Shown here: positions 5,488-11,437 of the stretch, one piece after another
Layout: every line of letters starts with the position of its first letter
Numbering within the stretch: position 1 is the stretch's first letter
From: Myxococcus sp.
GTDB lineage: Bacteria; Myxococcota; Myxococcia; Myxococcales; Myxococcaceae
Length of the DNA: 35,194 nt
Reading direction: 5' to 3'
NCBI GenBank assembly: GCA_014879945.1
Contig: JACSRE010000058.1
Location: 1-35,194, forward strand
Translations under genes and position numbers: made by a program
Notes under the pieces: generated by a model
The model's database searches: none
Told to the model about the DNA's origin: nothing
What the model saw: the letters and a program-made list of their open reading frames with translations, nothing else

Positions 5488-7155
5488 TTGTCGCCGTTCC
5501 TCACCTGGCTCTCGCCGCAGCCGACGCGCGACGAGCGACCCGCGCAGCTCAACAGCCCGTTCGACGTCGGCGAGCCCGGCGCGTTGCTCGAGCGCGCGGT
5601 GGACGCGGTGATGGCGCCGCTGCGCGCGGGCGAGCTCGGCGACGGGCTCACCGTCGAGGTGCTGCGCGGCCCCGAGGGAGGGAAGATGTTCGGCGTGCTC
5701 GTCGTCGAGGCGCCCGACGGCCGCGTGGGCTTCTTGAAGGCGTTCTCGGGCCAGCTCCGGCAGCGGTGGGACGTCGAGGGCTTCGTGCCTCCGGTGTTCG
5801 ACCGCGCGGCGCGGCTGGCGGTCGAGCCCGCCGGCGAGCGCGTGGTGAAGGCGATGACCGCGCGCGTCGAGGCCTACCGGACCTCGCCCGAGCGCCTCGA
5901 GCTGCTCGACGCGAAGGTGCAGCTCTCGGCCGCGCACGACGGTGCGCGGGCCGCGCTCCGAGCGCTCCACGAGGCGCGCCGCGTCGAGCGTCACCGCGAA
6001 CGGGCCCGCTTGAGCGCTCGAGGGCTCGACACCCCGGCTGCCCTGCGCGCGCTCGATCGACAGAGCCAGGCCGACGACGTCGAGCTCCAGGCGCAGAAGC
6101 GGGCCTGGCGCGCCGAGCGTGAGGCCCTCGACGAGCTGCTGCGCCGCGACGCCCGACGCCTCAAGGCCCTGGAGCGCCTGCGCCGCATCGTCTCTCAGGT
6201 GGTGTCGTGGCAGATCTACGACACGTACCTGTTCGAGAACGCCCGCGGCCAGCAGCGCTCGGTGCGCGCGCTCTTCGCGCCCAACGTCCCGTCCTCGGGC
6301 ACCGGCGACTGCGCGGCGCCCAAGCTGTTGGTGTTCGCCCTTCGTCACGGGCTGCGGCCGCTCGGCCTGGCAGAGTTCTGGTGGGGAGCGCCCCCGCCGG
6401 GCGGCGGCCGCGTCGAGGGCGCCTTCTTCCCCGCGTGCAAGGACAAGTGCGGGCCGCTGCTGCCGTTCCTCCTCGAGGGCGTCGACGTCGCGCCGTCGCG
6501 GCGCTTTCGGCCGAAGGAGCTCGGCGCGCACCCGCTCGAGGTGGTGCTCGAAGACGAGCGCTTCATCGTCGTGAACAAGCCCGAGGGCCTGCTGTCGGTG
6601 CCCGGCACCGACGCGTCGGTGACCGACTCGGTGCTGGCGCGGGTGCGGGCGCGACACCCGAAGGCCACCGGCCCGCTCCTGGTGCACCGGCTCGACGTCG
6701 AGACCTCGGGGCTGCTGCTGGTCGCGCTCGACGAGGCGGCCTACGTGGCGCTGCAGGCCCAGTTCATCGCGCGCACGGTGCACAAGCGGTACGTCGCGGT
6801 GCTCGACGGCGTGTTGTCGCGCGACGCCGGCGACGTCTCGCTCCCGCTGCGGGTCGACCTCGAGCAGCGGCCCCGGCAGCTGGTCGACTTCGAGCACGGC
6901 AAGCCGGCCGAGACCTCGTTCACCGTGCTCGCGCGCGCCAACGGGCGCACCCGGGTCGCCTTCTTCCCCAGGACGGGGCGGACGCACCAGCTCCGCGTTC
7001 ACGCCGCGCACGCCCAGGGCCTGGGGCTGCCCATCGTGGGAGACCGCCTCTACGGCAAGCCCGATTCGCGCCTGCTCCTGCACGCGGAGCGCTTGTCGTT
7101 CACGCACCCCACCACCGGCGCGCAGGTGGTGGTCGAGCTGCCGGCCCCGTTCTGA
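5488..7155 (+). CDS. RluA-family RNA pseudouridine synthase with long N-terminal extension
   Basis: 555 residues. The C-terminal third (about 340-555) is a PseudoU_synth_2 domain: VVNKPEGLLSVPG, the catalytic HRLDVETSG (Asp about 403), and RTGRTHQLRVH. It would isomerise uridine to pseudouridine in rRNA or tRNA. The first 340 residues are an extension with a long charged helical, probably coiled-coil stretch (about 130-250), then a segment containing GDCAAPKLL, LAEFWWGAPPPGG and a CKDKCG motif. I recall this arrangement from a subfamily of large RluA proteins; the role of the extension is unknown. The start is TTG: an in-frame TGA at 5464-5466 leaves no earlier start. The RNA target cannot be read from sequence. 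Confidence 0.9.
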   Translation: MSPFLTWLSPQPTRDERPAQLNSPFDVGEPGALLERAVDAVMAPLRAGELGDGLTVEVLRGPEGGKMFGVLVVEAPDGRVGFLKAFSGQLRQRWDVEGFVPPVFDRAARLAVEPAGERVVKAMTARVEAYRTSPERLELLDAKVQLSAAHDGARAALRALHEARRVERHRERARLSARGLDTPAALRALDRQSQADDVELQAQKRAWRAEREALDELLRRDARRLKALERLRRIVSQVVSWQIYDTYLFENARGQQRSVRALFAPNVPSSGTGDCAAPKLLVFALRHGLRPLGLAEFWWGAPPPGGGRVEGAFFPACKDKCGPLLPFLLEGVDVAPSRRFRPKELGAHPLEVVLEDERFIVVNKPEGLLSVPGTDASVTDSVLARVRARHPKATGPLLVHRLDVETSGLLLVALDEAAYVALQAQFIARTVHKRYVAVLDGVLSRDAGDVSLPLRVDLEQRPRQLVDFEHGKPAETSFTVLARANGRTRVAFFPRTGRTHQLRVHAAHAQGLGLPIVGDRLYGKPDSRLLLHAERLSFTHPTTGAQVVVELPAPF

Positions 7156-7207
7156 GCGGGCCGCTGGTTCGCGGCGAGCCAAAGGCTGATCAATACTCGC
7201 GGCGTCG

Positions 7208-8461
7208 ATGTCGCTCTGCGCCACAGGCCTGTTGCTCCTCACCCTGAGCGCCGCGCCAGCGCCGCCCCGCATGACGCTGGTCTTCGGCGGCGACGTCATT
7301 CCCCACGAGCCGGTGAAGAAGGCGGCCGAGAAGCACGCGCGCTTCGCCAAAGACGGCAGGCCGCTCAACGACTCGGGGTGGGGGCACGTCTTCGGGCCGC
7401 TCGCGCCGGTCTTCGGCGCCTACGACTTCGCCATCGTCAACCTCGAGACGCCGGTGACGCGGCGGGAGCAGCGCGAGGTGAAGGAGATGCTCTTCAACGC
7501 GCCGCCCGAGCTGCTGGCCGGGCTCAAGTCGTCGGGCGTCGACGTGGCGACCTTCGCCAACAACCACTGCCTCGACATGCACCCCGAGGGCATCACCAAC
7601 ACCCGAGACCTGCTCGACGAGGTCGGCTTGCGCGCCGCCGGGGCCGGGCGCACCGAGGCCGAGGCGTGGACGCCGCTCATCCTCGAGAAGAACGGGCTGA
7701 GGGTCGCGCTCATCGCCGTCAGCCGGTGGCTCAACAAGTTCCACAACAAGGGTGGGCCGGGCGATCCGCACGTGCCGGTGGTGCCCTACCTCGAGGAGCC
7801 CATCGGCGGCGGCCGCACCTTCGAGGCGTTCTTCCAGCACATCCGCGAGACCGCGAAGACGGTCGACGCGGTCATCGTCGCCGTGCACTGGGGCGCCGAG
7901 TACGTGCACGAGCCGATGAGCTACGACCGCGAGCTGGCGCGCGGCATGCTCGACGCCGGCGCGCTGGTCGTCATCGGGCACCACCCGCACGTGCTCCAGC
8001 CGGTGACGCCGCAGCGCCTGCGCGACGGCCGCGTGGGCCTGGTCGCCTACTCGCTGGGCAACCTCGTCTCGAACCAGGACTACGACGTCGCCGATGGCAC
8101 CAAGCGCGACGGGCTGCTGCTGGGCCTGGAGCTGACGCGCGCGACGCCCGGCGGGCCGTTGATCATCACCCGGGTGACGCCGGTGGGCATCGGCACCGAG
8201 AACCGCACCGGCACGGCGAAGCGAAACGTGCAGCCGGTGGTGCTCGACGACGAGGTGCTGGCGGTGAAGGAGCGGCTCGAGGCGCTCGAGCTCCGCGCGG
8301 GGCGCGGCTCGTCGAAGGAGCGCGCGCGGCTGCTGGAGCGGCTCAAGGTCCTCCAGACGCGGCAGCGGCGGGTGCGCGAGATGGTGGGCGCGGTGCCCGG
8401 GAGCCGTTCGCCGGCGGCGCAGCCCGGCGCGGTGCCGATGGGGGCCATGCCCGTGCGCTGA
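7208..8461 (+). CDS. CapA-family (poly-gamma-glutamate capsule type) exported metallophosphatase-like protein
   Basis: 417 residues with a short hydrophobic N-terminus (about 1-18) that looks like a signal peptide. The body shows the CapA series: FGGDVIPHE near 27-34, VNLETPVT, FANNHCLD, HWGAEYVHEP, GHHPHVLQP and YSLGNLVSNQ. In this family the Asp, Asn and His residues resemble those of calcineurin-like metallophosphoesterases, and several members take part in polyglutamate capsule synthesis or release. No other capsule gene is nearby, so the substrate is open. The last 80 residues are charged and helical, then a Pro/Ala/Met-rich tail, both outside the family core. It lies 52 bases after the pseudouridine synthase and may be read with it. 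Confidence 0.88.
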   Translation: MSLCATGLLLLTLSAAPAPPRMTLVFGGDVIPHEPVKKAAEKHARFAKDGRPLNDSGWGHVFGPLAPVFGAYDFAIVNLETPVTRREQREVKEMLFNAPPELLAGLKSSGVDVATFANNHCLDMHPEGITNTRDLLDEVGLRAAGAGRTEAEAWTPLILEKNGLRVALIAVSRWLNKFHNKGGPGDPHVPVVPYLEEPIGGGRTFEAFFQHIRETAKTVDAVIVAVHWGAEYVHEPMSYDRELARGMLDAGALVVIGHHPHVLQPVTPQRLRDGRVGLVAYSLGNLVSNQDYDVADGTKRDGLLLGLELTRATPGGPLIITRVTPVGIGTENRTGTAKRNVQPVVLDDEVLAVKERLEALELRAGRGSSKERARLLERLKVLQTRQRRVREMVGAVPGSRSPAAQPGAVPMGAMPVR

Positions 8462-8484
8462 GGGGTGTAGGGGCAGACCCCCTC
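8460..8484 (+). terminator. possible GC-rich hairpin after capA-like gene
   Basis: GAGGGG at 8460-8465 pairs with CCCCTC at 8479-8484; alternatively GGGG at 8470-8473 pairs with CCCC after a four-base loop. It lies right after the stop codon. There is no T-tract, so an intrinsic terminator is uncertain. Confidence 0.3.
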
Positions 8485-8569
8485 GTCACGGCAGACCCGA
8501 ACCCGGCAGCTTCAACCGGGCGACACGCCACGGTGGGCGGGCGGCACCGGGCGTGCACTCAGGCCCCGC

Positions 8570-10006
8570 ATGTCCCGGCTGAATCAGCTCTTCGACTACC
8601 TCTTCCTGAACGCGGGCAGCGCCCTCGAGCTCGACTCGGGCACCACCGGGGTCTTCCAGCAAGAGGGCGCCGCGCCGCTGCCGGTGTTCCGCGCCCCGCT
8701 GTCGAGCGGCCAGATTCTGCTCCTCTTCACCGACGTGGTGCCCAAGGCGCTGTCCACGCAGCTGCTGTCGGGCGTGCCGGTGGAGTTTCAGTACGAGGCC
8801 GACGCGGGCGTGGTGAACGTGCACATGACGCTGCAGGGCGACGACCTGCGGGTCACCGCGCGCGCCCTCAAGAAGCACCCGCCCACGCTGGTGCCCATCA
8901 ACGGCGGGCAGCACCCGTCGCTGGGGCCGCCGCCGCCCGACGTCGTCACCCCGCCCAGCCGCGCGGCCCTCAAGGCGTTGATGATCGAGATGGAGGGACG
9001 GCGGGCCACGCACCTCCACGTCGCCGCTGGTGGCGGCGCGCTGCTGCGCCTCGACGGCCAGCTGGTGCCGGTTCAGTCGCTGAGCTTCACCGAGGCCGAG
9101 CTCTTCGCGGAGCTCACGGCCCTCGCGCCGGCGGCGCTGCGCGACACCCTGCACCAGCACGCCCGCATCGACTTCTCGCACGTCACCGACGACTCGGTGT
9201 TCCACCTCTCTGCCCAGCACGCCCGCACGGGGCTGTCGGTGGTGGTGCGGCGCCTGCCGCGCGTGGTGCCGTCGGTCACCGCGCTGGGCCTGCCGGGAGA
9301 GCTGGTGCAGGCCATGGGCGGCGCCGGGCTGTGGGTGCTGTCGGGCCCCGCAGGCCACGGCGTCACCACCTCGCTGGCGAGCGTGATGCAGTCGGTCGTC
9401 TCGCAGCGCCCGCTCTCGGTGCGGTGCCTCGAGGCGCCCATCGAGTACCTGCTCGCGCCCGGCGCGGGGCCGCTGGGGCAGCTCGAGGTCGGCGCGCACG
9501 CCGCGTCGTTCGCCGAGGGGCTGCGCGACGCGCGCCGTGACGACGTCGACGTGGTGATGGTGAGCGAGCTCGACGACGCCGAGGTGCTGCGCGAGGCGCT
9601 GGCCCTGGCCGAGCGCGGCAAGCTGGTCGTCGGCTCGCTCCACGCCCGCGGCGCGGCCCAGGCGGCCGAGAAGCTCGTGCACCTCACCCAGGGGCACCCC
9701 ACGGCGCGCTGGCAGCTGGGGCAGGCGCTGCGCGGGGTGTTCTCGCAGGTGCTCTGTCGCAACCGAAACGGCGGCAAGCACCTGGCCTGGGAGCTGCTCC
9801 CCGGGGTGGCGCAGGTCCGCTCGGCGCTCTTCGAGGGGCAGGCGGCTTCGTTCCCGGCGATGCGCACGCGCACGCTCGAGCAGGGCCTCTCCGAGCTGGT
9901 CTCGGCGGGCCTGGTCGAGCGCGAAGAGGCGCTCTCGGTCGCGCCCGACAGGTCGGCGCTCGAGAGCGCGCTCGCGCGGCCCGGAGTCGGTCGCAGCGCG
10001 GCCTGA
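8570..10006 (+). CDS. PilT/GspE-like secretion ATPase homologue lacking the Walker A lysine
   Basis: 478 residues. From about 135 onward the PilT fold can be followed: a PAS-like N-domain (THLHVAAGG, LLRLDGQLVP), then the nucleotide core. The P-loop reads GPAGHGVTT, so the invariant lysine is valine (about 265). The Walker B region reads VMVSELDDAE where PilT has GEMRD: the glutamate is kept, the arginine is not. The His box is kept as SLHARGAA. The C-terminal part (LRGVFSQVLCR, TLEQGLSELV) follows PilT. The first 130 residues look like a second, diverged N-domain. Pilus retraction ATPases of this family are hexamers; this copy probably binds ATP poorly and may regulate or cap an active paralogue. 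No pilus genes lie beside it. Confidence 0.85.
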   Translation: MSRLNQLFDYLFLNAGSALELDSGTTGVFQQEGAAPLPVFRAPLSSGQILLLFTDVVPKALSTQLLSGVPVEFQYEADAGVVNVHMTLQGDDLRVTARALKKHPPTLVPINGGQHPSLGPPPPDVVTPPSRAALKALMIEMEGRRATHLHVAAGGGALLRLDGQLVPVQSLSFTEAELFAELTALAPAALRDTLHQHARIDFSHVTDDSVFHLSAQHARTGLSVVVRRLPRVVPSVTALGLPGELVQAMGGAGLWVLSGPAGHGVTTSLASVMQSVVSQRPLSVRCLEAPIEYLLAPGAGPLGQLEVGAHAASFAEGLRDARRDDVDVVMVSELDDAEVLREALALAERGKLVVGSLHARGAAQAAEKLVHLTQGHPTARWQLGQALRGVFSQVLCRNRNGGKHLAWELLPGVAQVRSALFEGQAASFPAMRTRTLEQGLSELVSAGLVEREEALSVAPDRSALESALARPGVGRSAA

Positions 10007-10051
10007 GTTGCGGGCCCGGGCTGCACCCTGCGCCTGCTAGGTTCGGCCGCC

Positions 10052-11437
10052 ATGGTCATGCCCCTTTGCCGTCCGTCGACGCCCCTCGAGCTCATCGGCA
10101 ACACGCCGATGGTGAAGGTCACCCGGCTCGACACCGGGCCGTGCGAGCTGTTCCTCAAGCTCGAGTCGCACAACCCCGGCGGGAGCATCAAAGACCGCAT
10201 CGGCCTGTCGATGATCCGCGCGGCCGAAGAGGCCGGCCTGGTGGGCCCGACCCAGATGAAGCTCGTCGAGGCCACCGCGGGGAACACTGGGCTGGGCCTG
10301 GCGCTGGTGGCGGCGGTGCGCGGCTACCAGCTCACCCTCGTCATCCCCGACAAGATGAGCCAGGAGAAGATCGCCCACCTCAAGGCCATGGGGGCGCAGG
10401 TGGTGATGACGCGCTCCGACGTCGGCAAGGGCCACCCGCAGTACTACCAGGACGTCGCCCAGCGGCTGGCCGCCGAGACGGGCGCGTTCTACGTCAACCA
10501 GTTCGAGAACCCGGCGAACCCGAAGGCCCACGAAGAGGGCACTGGCCCCGAGATCGCCGCCCAGCTCGACGGCGACCTCGACGCGATGGTGGTGGGCGTC
10601 GGCTCGGGCGGCACGCTCACCGGCCTGGCGCGGGCCTTCAAGGACCGCATCCCGAAGTGCGAGATGGTGCTCGCCGACCCGAAGGGCTCGGTGCTGGCTG
10701 GCTACCTCGAGACGGGGCGCCTGGGGGAAGCGGGCAGCTGGGTCGTCGAGGGCATCGGCGAAGACTTCATTCCCGTCATCTGCGACCTCTCGAGCGTGAA
10801 GAAGGCCTACACCATCACCGACGCCGAGAGCCTCGAGACCGCGCGGGCGCTGCTGCGCGCCGAGGGCCTGCTCGCGGGCTCCTCGTCAGGCACGCTCCTG
10901 GCCGCGGCGCTCAGGTACTGCCGCGAGCAGACGACGAAGAAGCGCGTGTGCACCTTCGTCTGCGACTCGGGCAACAAGTACCTCTCGAAGATGTTCAACG
11001 ACGGGTGGATGCTCGACCAGGGCTTCCTCAAGCGGGAGCAGCAGGGCGATCTGCGCGACGTCATCTCGCGGCGCTTCGCCGACGACGCGGTGGTGACGGC
11101 GGCGCCCGACGACACGCTGCTGACCGCGCACGCGCGCATGAAGCTCTACGACATCTCGCAGCTGCCGGTGATGGAGCGCGGGGTGCTCGCCGGCATCATC
11201 GACGAGTCCGACGTGCTGCTGGCGGCGGTCGACGACGAGAAGCAGCTCAAGCGGCCGGTGCGCGAGGTGATGGTGCCGCGCGCGCGGCTGAAGACGGTGC
11301 AGGTGAACACGCCCGTGCGTGAGCTGATGCCGCTGCTCGACAGCGGGCTGGTGGCCATCGTGATGGAGCAGGACGCCTTCGTCGGCCTCATCACCCGCAT
11401 GGACGTGCTCAACCACCTGCGCCGCCGGCTCCGCTGA
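10052..11437 (+). CDS. PLP-dependent cystathionine beta-synthase / cysteine synthase with CBS domain pair
   Basis: 461 residues. The fold-type II PLP core covers about 8-320: LIGNTPMV, the PLP lysine in GGSIKDR (Lys about 47), the substrate loop EATAGNTGLGLA, and the phosphate-binding GVGSGGTLTG. Two CBS domains follow (about 325-385 and 395-455), the arrangement of eukaryotic-type cystathionine beta-synthase. The reaction is beta-replacement on serine or O-acetylserine to give cystathionine or cysteine; the sequence alone does not decide between them. CBS pairs usually sense adenosyl compounds such as S-adenosylmethionine. It lies 45 bases after the PilT-like gene. No cystathionine gamma-lyase gene is in the window. 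Confidence 0.92.
   Translation: MVMPLCRPSTPLELIGNTPMVKVTRLDTGPCELFLKLESHNPGGSIKDRIGLSMIRAAEEAGLVGPTQMKLVEATAGNTGLGLALVAAVRGYQLTLVIPDKMSQEKIAHLKAMGAQVVMTRSDVGKGHPQYYQDVAQRLAAETGAFYVNQFENPANPKAHEEGTGPEIAAQLDGDLDAMVVGVGSGGTLTGLARAFKDRIPKCEMVLADPKGSVLAGYLETGRLGEAGSWVVEGIGEDFIPVICDLSSVKKAYTITDAESLETARALLRAEGLLAGSSSGTLLAAALRYCREQTTKKRVCTFVCDSGNKYLSKMFNDGWMLDQGFLKREQQGDLRDVISRRFADDAVVTAAPDDTLLTAHARMKLYDISQLPVMERGVLAGIIDESDVLLAAVDDEKQLKRPVREVMVPRARLKTVQVNTPVRELMPLLDSGLVAIVMEQDAFVGLITRMDVLNHLRRRLR

Follow-up and report, generated by a model that had tools for sequence, protein, structure and literature searches.

A PilT-like protein without the Walker A lysine in three related myxobacterial genera: a probable pseudo-ATPase with a possible pilus-linked role

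We describe a PilT-like protein, here called psPilT, that lacks the lysine of the Walker A motif, as do all of its close orthologues, and in which several other catalytic residues have been lost together while the PilT fold has been retained under selection. It is encoded in the window, a stretch of 35,194 nucleotides from a Myxococcus sp. contig. Judged from its sequence, psPilT is very probably a pseudo-ATPase and not a motor. The fuller statement, that it is a PilT-derived pseudo-ATPase with a regulatory role linked to pili, is our tentative reading and, taken as a whole, falls somewhat short of probable.

8570..10006, + strand: psPilT, PilT-like probable pseudo-ATPase of 478 aa (open reading frame with ATG start, translation, matches to PF00437 and TIGR01420)
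9344..9370, + strand: degenerate Walker A motif GPAGHGVTT, with Val265 (9362-9364) in place of lysine (translation, orthologue alignment)

The frame and its unusual P-loop, first pointed out in an earlier note on this DNA, are real: the motif spans residues 259-267, and Val265 is the codon GTC. The protein belongs to the T2SSE superfamily, scoring 65.3 bits against the Pfam profile PF00437 (gathering cut-off 24.9). Its best NCBIfam model by E-value is TIGR01420 (PilT/PilU), which is matched by 10 of 10 psPilT members, and its score of 173.9 bits lies under the cut-off of 319.1 bits; the PilT of its own genome reaches 492.8 bits. The full-length AlphaFold model (pLDDT 83.4, pTM 0.64) has the PilT fold, with residues 126-473 matching PilT4 (6ok2_D) with Z 34.1 and rmsd 3.9 over 348 aligned residues, and PilU (9n32) with Z 33.1. 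Among solved structures PilT was the best match, at E 6.5e-63 versus 1.8e-14 for PilB. Several PilT paralogues of the same genome have an intact Walker A motif, and psPilT is about 27-33% identical to them; none of the 14 own-genome matches to psPilT is a two-N-domain PilT with the lysine. Two further loci of this genome (L113 on contig C121 and L114 on C96) carry tandem PilT-type genes, the first of which is extended at its N-terminus (total lengths 832 and 467 aa).

The loss of the lysine extends to a family of orthologues. Matches at E <= 1e-46 were found in 12 of 96 genomes of the family, namely the 11 psPilT carriers and one genome (G013) whose match is an intact two-N-domain PilT outside the psPilT clade. 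Carriers make up six of the seven genomes of the window's genus (g1), the single genome of g13 and four of the six of g16, each of them represented here solely by a metagenome-assembled genome. A profile of the clade (E <= 1e-97) recovered no further genome among 195 of the phylum, a search that a divergent member could escape. None of the 11 carriers has the lysine, its position being occupied by Val throughout g1 (6/6) and by Thr in the five genomes of g13 and g16. The alignment of orthologues thus bears out the conservation of the residue within the genus. The case that the earlier note had named as fatal to its reading, close orthologues with an intact GxGK, was encountered in none of the 11; intact forms occur only in a distinct and more distant group at about 30-35% identity. 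A mutation of a single strain or a sequencing error is ruled out by the absence of the lysine in all 11 genomes. In another genome of the family, an apparently separate Walker A change is seen in a different PilT paralogue (L015, G019:C4:657919-658929), which reads GPKGSGRSTT, with Arg for the lysine, and lies beside a second PilT-like gene.

A comparison of the active-site columns shows how far the loss has gone.

9203..9205, + strand: His212, first arginine-finger position, His or Tyr in 10/10 of the clade (column counts, PilB alignment)
9248..9250, + strand: Arg227, second arginine-finger position, kept in 10/10 (column counts, PilB alignment)
9425..9448, + strand: degenerate Asp box, EAPIE for EDPIE, with Asp289 lost in 10/10 (column counts)
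9551..9577, + strand: Walker B region VVMVSELDD for VVLVGEMRD, with Glu333 kept here and Arg335 replaced by Asp in 10/10 (column counts)
9614..9646, + strand: His box, in which Lys351 replaces the first His while His358 is retained (column counts)

The counts set 10 psPilT proteins against 23 intact PilTs (22 two-N-domain PilTs, with L099 and L102 excluded, and the PilT of the same genome). The psPilT set excludes the copy of G003, which is split over two contigs, its N-terminal piece running out of register at the contig end and the other piece reading GHGVST; one of its rows (L003) ends at a contig end. Of 96 columns invariant in the intact PilTs, 30 are lost in 10/10 psPilT proteins and 34 are kept in at least nine. 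K265, D289, R305, R210, R212, R335 and H351 are lost in all 10, and G259, G262, G264, Thr267, Glu288, Asp325, Asp327, Arg227 and His358 are kept in all 10. The catalytic Glu333 survives in four, including the window protein, and is lost in six, and the acidic residue of pore loop 1, Asp336, is kept in nine. According to an excerpt of PMC5424180, the Walker motifs, the catalytic Glu, the two arginine fingers and the Asp-box Glu are completely conserved across the family. psPilT departs from PilT and PilU in the Walker A lysine, the Asp of the Asp box, usually the catalytic Glu, one of the two arginine fingers and the first His of the His box. The change that had been noticed just past the Walker B glutamate holds for the whole clade, as the residue two positions further on is Asp335 in psPilT and Arg in 23 of 23 intact PilTs.

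The first finger position is Arg in all intact PilTs and in both PilB-type proteins of the genome that were compared. In the alignment with the genome's own PilB, the R212 and R227 positions of psPilT fall on PilB R269 and R284, and the spacing of 15 residues is that of R271 and R286, the pair described at the ADP site in the same excerpt (PMC5424180). By this spacing and alignment, the kept R227 would correspond to the phosphate-contacting finger and the lost R212 to the finger that contacts the Asp-box Glu.

The earlier note also held that the rest of the PilT framework is kept, His box and C-terminal helices included. This stands for the fold, for H358 and for 34 of the 96 columns, and fails for the 30 lost columns, for H351, for an AIRNLIRE-type helix and for the full length of pore loop 3. 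At 20 positions the clade has an invariant residue of its own that occurs in at most one of the 23 intact PilTs (W255, D335, R349 and W407 among them), and new constraints have therefore arisen.

The N-terminal half of the protein consists, as had been suspected, of two N-domains.

8570..8887, + strand: first, extra PilT-type N-domain, residues 1-106 (AlphaFold pLDDT 92.1, Z 14.1, profile comparison)
8969..9265, + strand: second N-domain, residues ~134-232, as in ordinary PilT (structure matches over 126-473, alignment)

Modelled alone, residues 1-106 match residues 1-105 of PilT4 (Z 14.1, rmsd 3.1, 104 aligned). Comparison of the profiles of the two N-domains gives a probability of 97.7% when lysine-intact relatives are included and 22.3% with the psPilT clade alone. 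The same arrangement, with tandem PilT N-domains ahead of the ATPase domain, defines the two-N-domain PilTs found elsewhere in the order, whose P-loop reads GPTGSGKST. Because of the common extra N-domain, we infer that psPilT likely descended from a two-N-domain PilT with an intact lysine. In a tree of 44 rows, the 10 psPilT rows group at 100/100 on a stem of 2.63 changes per site, a length expected after release from catalysis; their attachment within the two-N-domain group is not placed by the tree, in which the stem is long and the composition of six rows is skewed. Three rows were trimmed, L099 at 430 residues, where its C-terminus leaves the homologous frame, and L034 and L039 at 380. 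Directly upstream of the intact two-N-domain PilT gene in six loci (L059, L060, L062, L063, L066 and L067) lies a gene for a DUF6812-like protein of about 155 aa, a conserved and uncharacterised PilT neighbour. A search with one such protein found matches in 41 of 145 genomes of the order (36 with E < 1e-19) and in none of the 11 psPilT carriers.

psPilT is maintained as a protein. All complete copies have open frames, at 39-77% identity. For each of five pairs, 500 neutral simulations were run; the amino-acid identity that they reached was at most 0.55-0.66, below the observed 0.68-0.82, and the frame stayed open in only 7-14 of the 500 copies. The simulation is simple, with the same number of differences per pair and unequal target-base frequencies in place of a codon model; it was used instead of Nei-Gojobori ratios, which we set aside since synonymous distances look held down by high-GC third positions. 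Together with the loss of the lysine and other catalytic residues across the clade, the excess of identity agrees with the original proposal that selection has kept the fold without the usual catalysis, and it makes psPilT a probable pseudoenzyme, its catalytic residues being lost across orthologues under purifying selection.

One neighbouring gene is constant.

7208..8461, + strand: CapA-like gene (PGA_cap, PF09587, 231.8 bits), directly upstream of psPilT
10052..11437, + strand: CBS-domain PLP enzyme of the cystathionine beta-synthase type, the downstream neighbour, in g1 only, where the contig reaches

The N-terminus of the CapA-like protein is hydrophobic and, by eye, resembles a signal peptide. 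In 11 of 11 carriers capA lies directly upstream of psPilT on the same strand, with a gap of 73-132 nt if ATG starts are used, and it is the sole neighbour common to the three genera; three of four g16 loci have another short gene and a protein kinase. (Neighbouring genes were called by codon usage; the called psPilT start lies upstream of the ATG used in L048 and internally in L057.) A promoter scan of 7000-10200 detected neither a sigma-70-type site nor a terminator-like site in the gap between the two genes. CapA-like genes occur in 80 of the 96 family genomes, 69 of which have no psPilT. In a tree of 29 CapA loci, one from each of 29 of these 80 genomes, the carriers belong to a single group (14 members, 92/97), in which three genomes, G023, G065 and G068, have no psPilT. 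G065 preserves the order of capA, next gene and kinase, minus psPilT, on a single contig of an assembly that is 80% complete. In G023 (L122:6089-7603) the gene right after capA reads by eye as a DnaK/Hsp70-type protein. The link between capA and psPilT thus had either one origin followed by more than one loss, or some of these three genomes never had psPilT. As psPilT is absent from G065, which keeps pilB and capA, and from three of the 14 members of the CapA clade, it is dispensable. The usual poly-gamma-glutamate pathway is unlikely in g1: PgsB was found in none of its seven genomes, whereas the control search matched 6 of 14 genomes, B. subtilis included, and a link to a poly-gamma-glutamate capsule through PgsB is accordingly disfavoured.

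We recognised no pil gene in the 3.5-20 kb examined around each psPilT locus, nor in the 35-kb window. All 11 carriers, and G065 too, encode a canonical PilB that scores over its cut-off; the score is under the cut-off in G004 and G068, both of which are without psPilT and have incomplete assemblies (85% and 79%). The genome of the window has a pilB, pilT, pilC cluster, whose adjoining genes read by eye as a sensor kinase, a response regulator and a pilin. Another of its loci (L119, contig C375) shows, also by eye, several pseudopilin-like genes together with those of a platform-like protein and an ATPase of the GspE/PilB type, which makes a type II secretion system probable as well.

The surface that would face the pilus has been altered as well.

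9680..9709, + strand: shortened pore loop 3 (alignment; loop located through structure-match numbering and an excerpt of PMC5424180)

That excerpt predicts a binding site for PilC on an extension of pore loop 3 that is specific to PilT and centred, in the A. aeolicus protein, on N260 (PMC5424180). Counted along the structure-match alignment, the extension corresponds to residues ~371-380 of the window protein. Here two residues are missing from the psPilT of g1 and g13 and five to seven from that of g16, and none from any of the 26 intact sequences aligned with them, so that the six-residue extension of PilT and PilU is incomplete, by 2-7 residues, in 10 of 10 psPilT proteins. Also gone from psPilT is the AIRNLIRE-type stretch, which reads NLIRE in the two-N-domain group, and about eight more residues are absent ahead of the C-terminal helices. 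The short loop and the lost helix disfavour ordinary coupling of PilT to PilC, and psPilT probably does not grip PilC in the manner presumed for PilT, whatever partner it binds.

The explanation that we tentatively prefer begins with a two-N-domain PilT. In the ancestor of the three related genera, its gene would have come into linkage with a capA-like gene, and the residues for ATP binding and hydrolysis would have been lost, with the fold remaining under selection. psPilT would since have been permanently nucleotide-free, acting as a scaffold or regulator in place of a motor. It would most likely dock with proteins of the pilus motor, either an active PilT-type ring or, less likely, PilC, and this docking may tune retraction or the myxobacterial envelope-polymer response governed by pilus motors, the CapA-like protein being a putative exported partner or output. 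A pilus-linked role is favoured by PilT being the best match among solved structures and by the canonical PilB of all carriers. Against it stand the lack of an adjacent pil gene, the CapA-like protein as the conserved partner and the short loop at the predicted PilC contact. Two laboratory precedents make such a role plausible. According to excerpts of PMC6762196 and PMC6821130, a V. cholerae PilT whose Walker A lysine has been replaced can still support retraction driven by PilU, and PilT Walker mutants retain interaction with PilC and PilU in two-hybrid assays. An excerpt of PMC5544727 describes a Lys-to-Ala change in the Walker A motif of M. xanthus PilB; the altered protein switches on the production of exopolysaccharide, and the apo form is proposed as the signalling state. 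The latter precedent is limited, as it concerns PilB and exopolysaccharide, whereas here we have PilT and CapA.

The same neighbourhood and loop data could be read differently, with psPilT detached from pili altogether and acting as a cytoplasmic scaffold, possibly a ring, that serves an envelope or surface-polymer process together with the exported CapA-like protein. The constancy of capA in 11 of 11 carriers amid neighbours that vary among the genera, the altered pore loop 3 extension and AIRNLIRE stretch, and the absence of pil genes nearby all suit this reading, which we regard as unlikely, though a serious competitor. A conserved neighbour is not an interaction; CapA does not need psPilT, given the 69 of 80 genomes that have the former without the latter; and no capsule pathway was identified, PgsB being absent from all seven g1 genomes. 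Slightly less likely still is that a nucleotide-free, PilT-shaped and perhaps ring-forming scaffold, removed from the pilus machine, would form with the exported CapA-family protein a new two-gene envelope module of one myxobacterial lineage.

Retention of Arg227 in 10/10 despite the loss of the lysine from the protein's own site raises the idea of a dead subunit in mixed rings. If psPilT entered hexamers of one of the several active PilT paralogues, it could lend this residue, aligned to the phosphate-contacting finger of PilB, to the neighbour's site and slow or gate the ring. However, the other finger, R212, is lost in 10/10, identity to these paralogues is only about 27-33%, the extra N-domain may clash, and V. 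cholerae PilT and PilU are independent homohexamers according to an excerpt of PMC6821130; we consider such rings quite improbable. Only a little less probable is that psPilT binds ATP, ADP or another nucleotide as a ligand in some unconventional way. The P-loop (residues 261-270) is modelled with a pLDDT of 86, and the three glycines, Thr267, Glu288, Asp325 and Asp327 are kept throughout, but the lysine, the Asp-box Asp, R212, R305 and R335 have gone together, and in PilB the change of the Walker A Lys to Ala alone strongly lowered ATP affinity (PMC5544727, in excerpt). Finally, the patchy presence of the gene, which may have been lost three times within the CapA clade, and the long stem branch might suggest a decaying relic devoid of function. 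This we hold to be very improbable, because the frames are open in all complete copies, identity exceeds that of 500/500 neutral simulations in 5/5 pairs, so few simulated copies stay open, and the clade has invariant residues of its own.

That myxobacteria have multiple PilT paralogues is known (PMC6060248, PMC6762196) and is also treated in PMC8833165, all three sources being cited here from excerpts. In the open-licence literature, covered by titles and the starts of abstracts, we found no description of a natural PilT clade without the Walker A lysine. Engineered Walker mutants suggest that the tasks of pilus ATPases are not confined to ATP hydrolysis and include partner docking and signalling by the apo form. 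A natural clade fixed in the nucleotide-free state would provide an independent test of this, since it would reveal the surfaces that stay under selection when catalysis has been lost, and psPilT would constitute a separation-of-function protein ready for use. Annotators would also be alerted that matches to the PilT family below a curated cut-off can be non-motors.

Among known systems, PilT and PilU resemble psPilT in fold, whereas psPilT scores below their cut-off, has lost catalytic residues, carries an extra N-domain and has a short pore loop 3. The CapA-family protein (PF09587), although encoded upstream in all carriers, is a different protein, and g1 has no PgsB to go with it. The closest relatives are the two-N-domain PilTs of other Myxococcales, which share the N-N-ATPase order (first N-domain match E 3.9e-24) and about 30-35% identity. 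Unlike psPilT, they keep the lysine, the Asp box, GE[ML]RD and both His, the two that were tested pass the TIGR01420 cut-off (445.7 and 468.3 bits), and six of the nine loci viewed have the DUF6812-like neighbour in place of capA. Laboratory parallels are PilT K136A of V. cholerae and PilB K327A of M. xanthus, which like psPilT have no Walker A lysine and which, according to excerpts of PMC6821130, PMC6762196 and PMC5544727, still do a non-motor job. However, these are single engineered changes, whereas in psPilT many losses have occurred in co-ordination across a natural clade.
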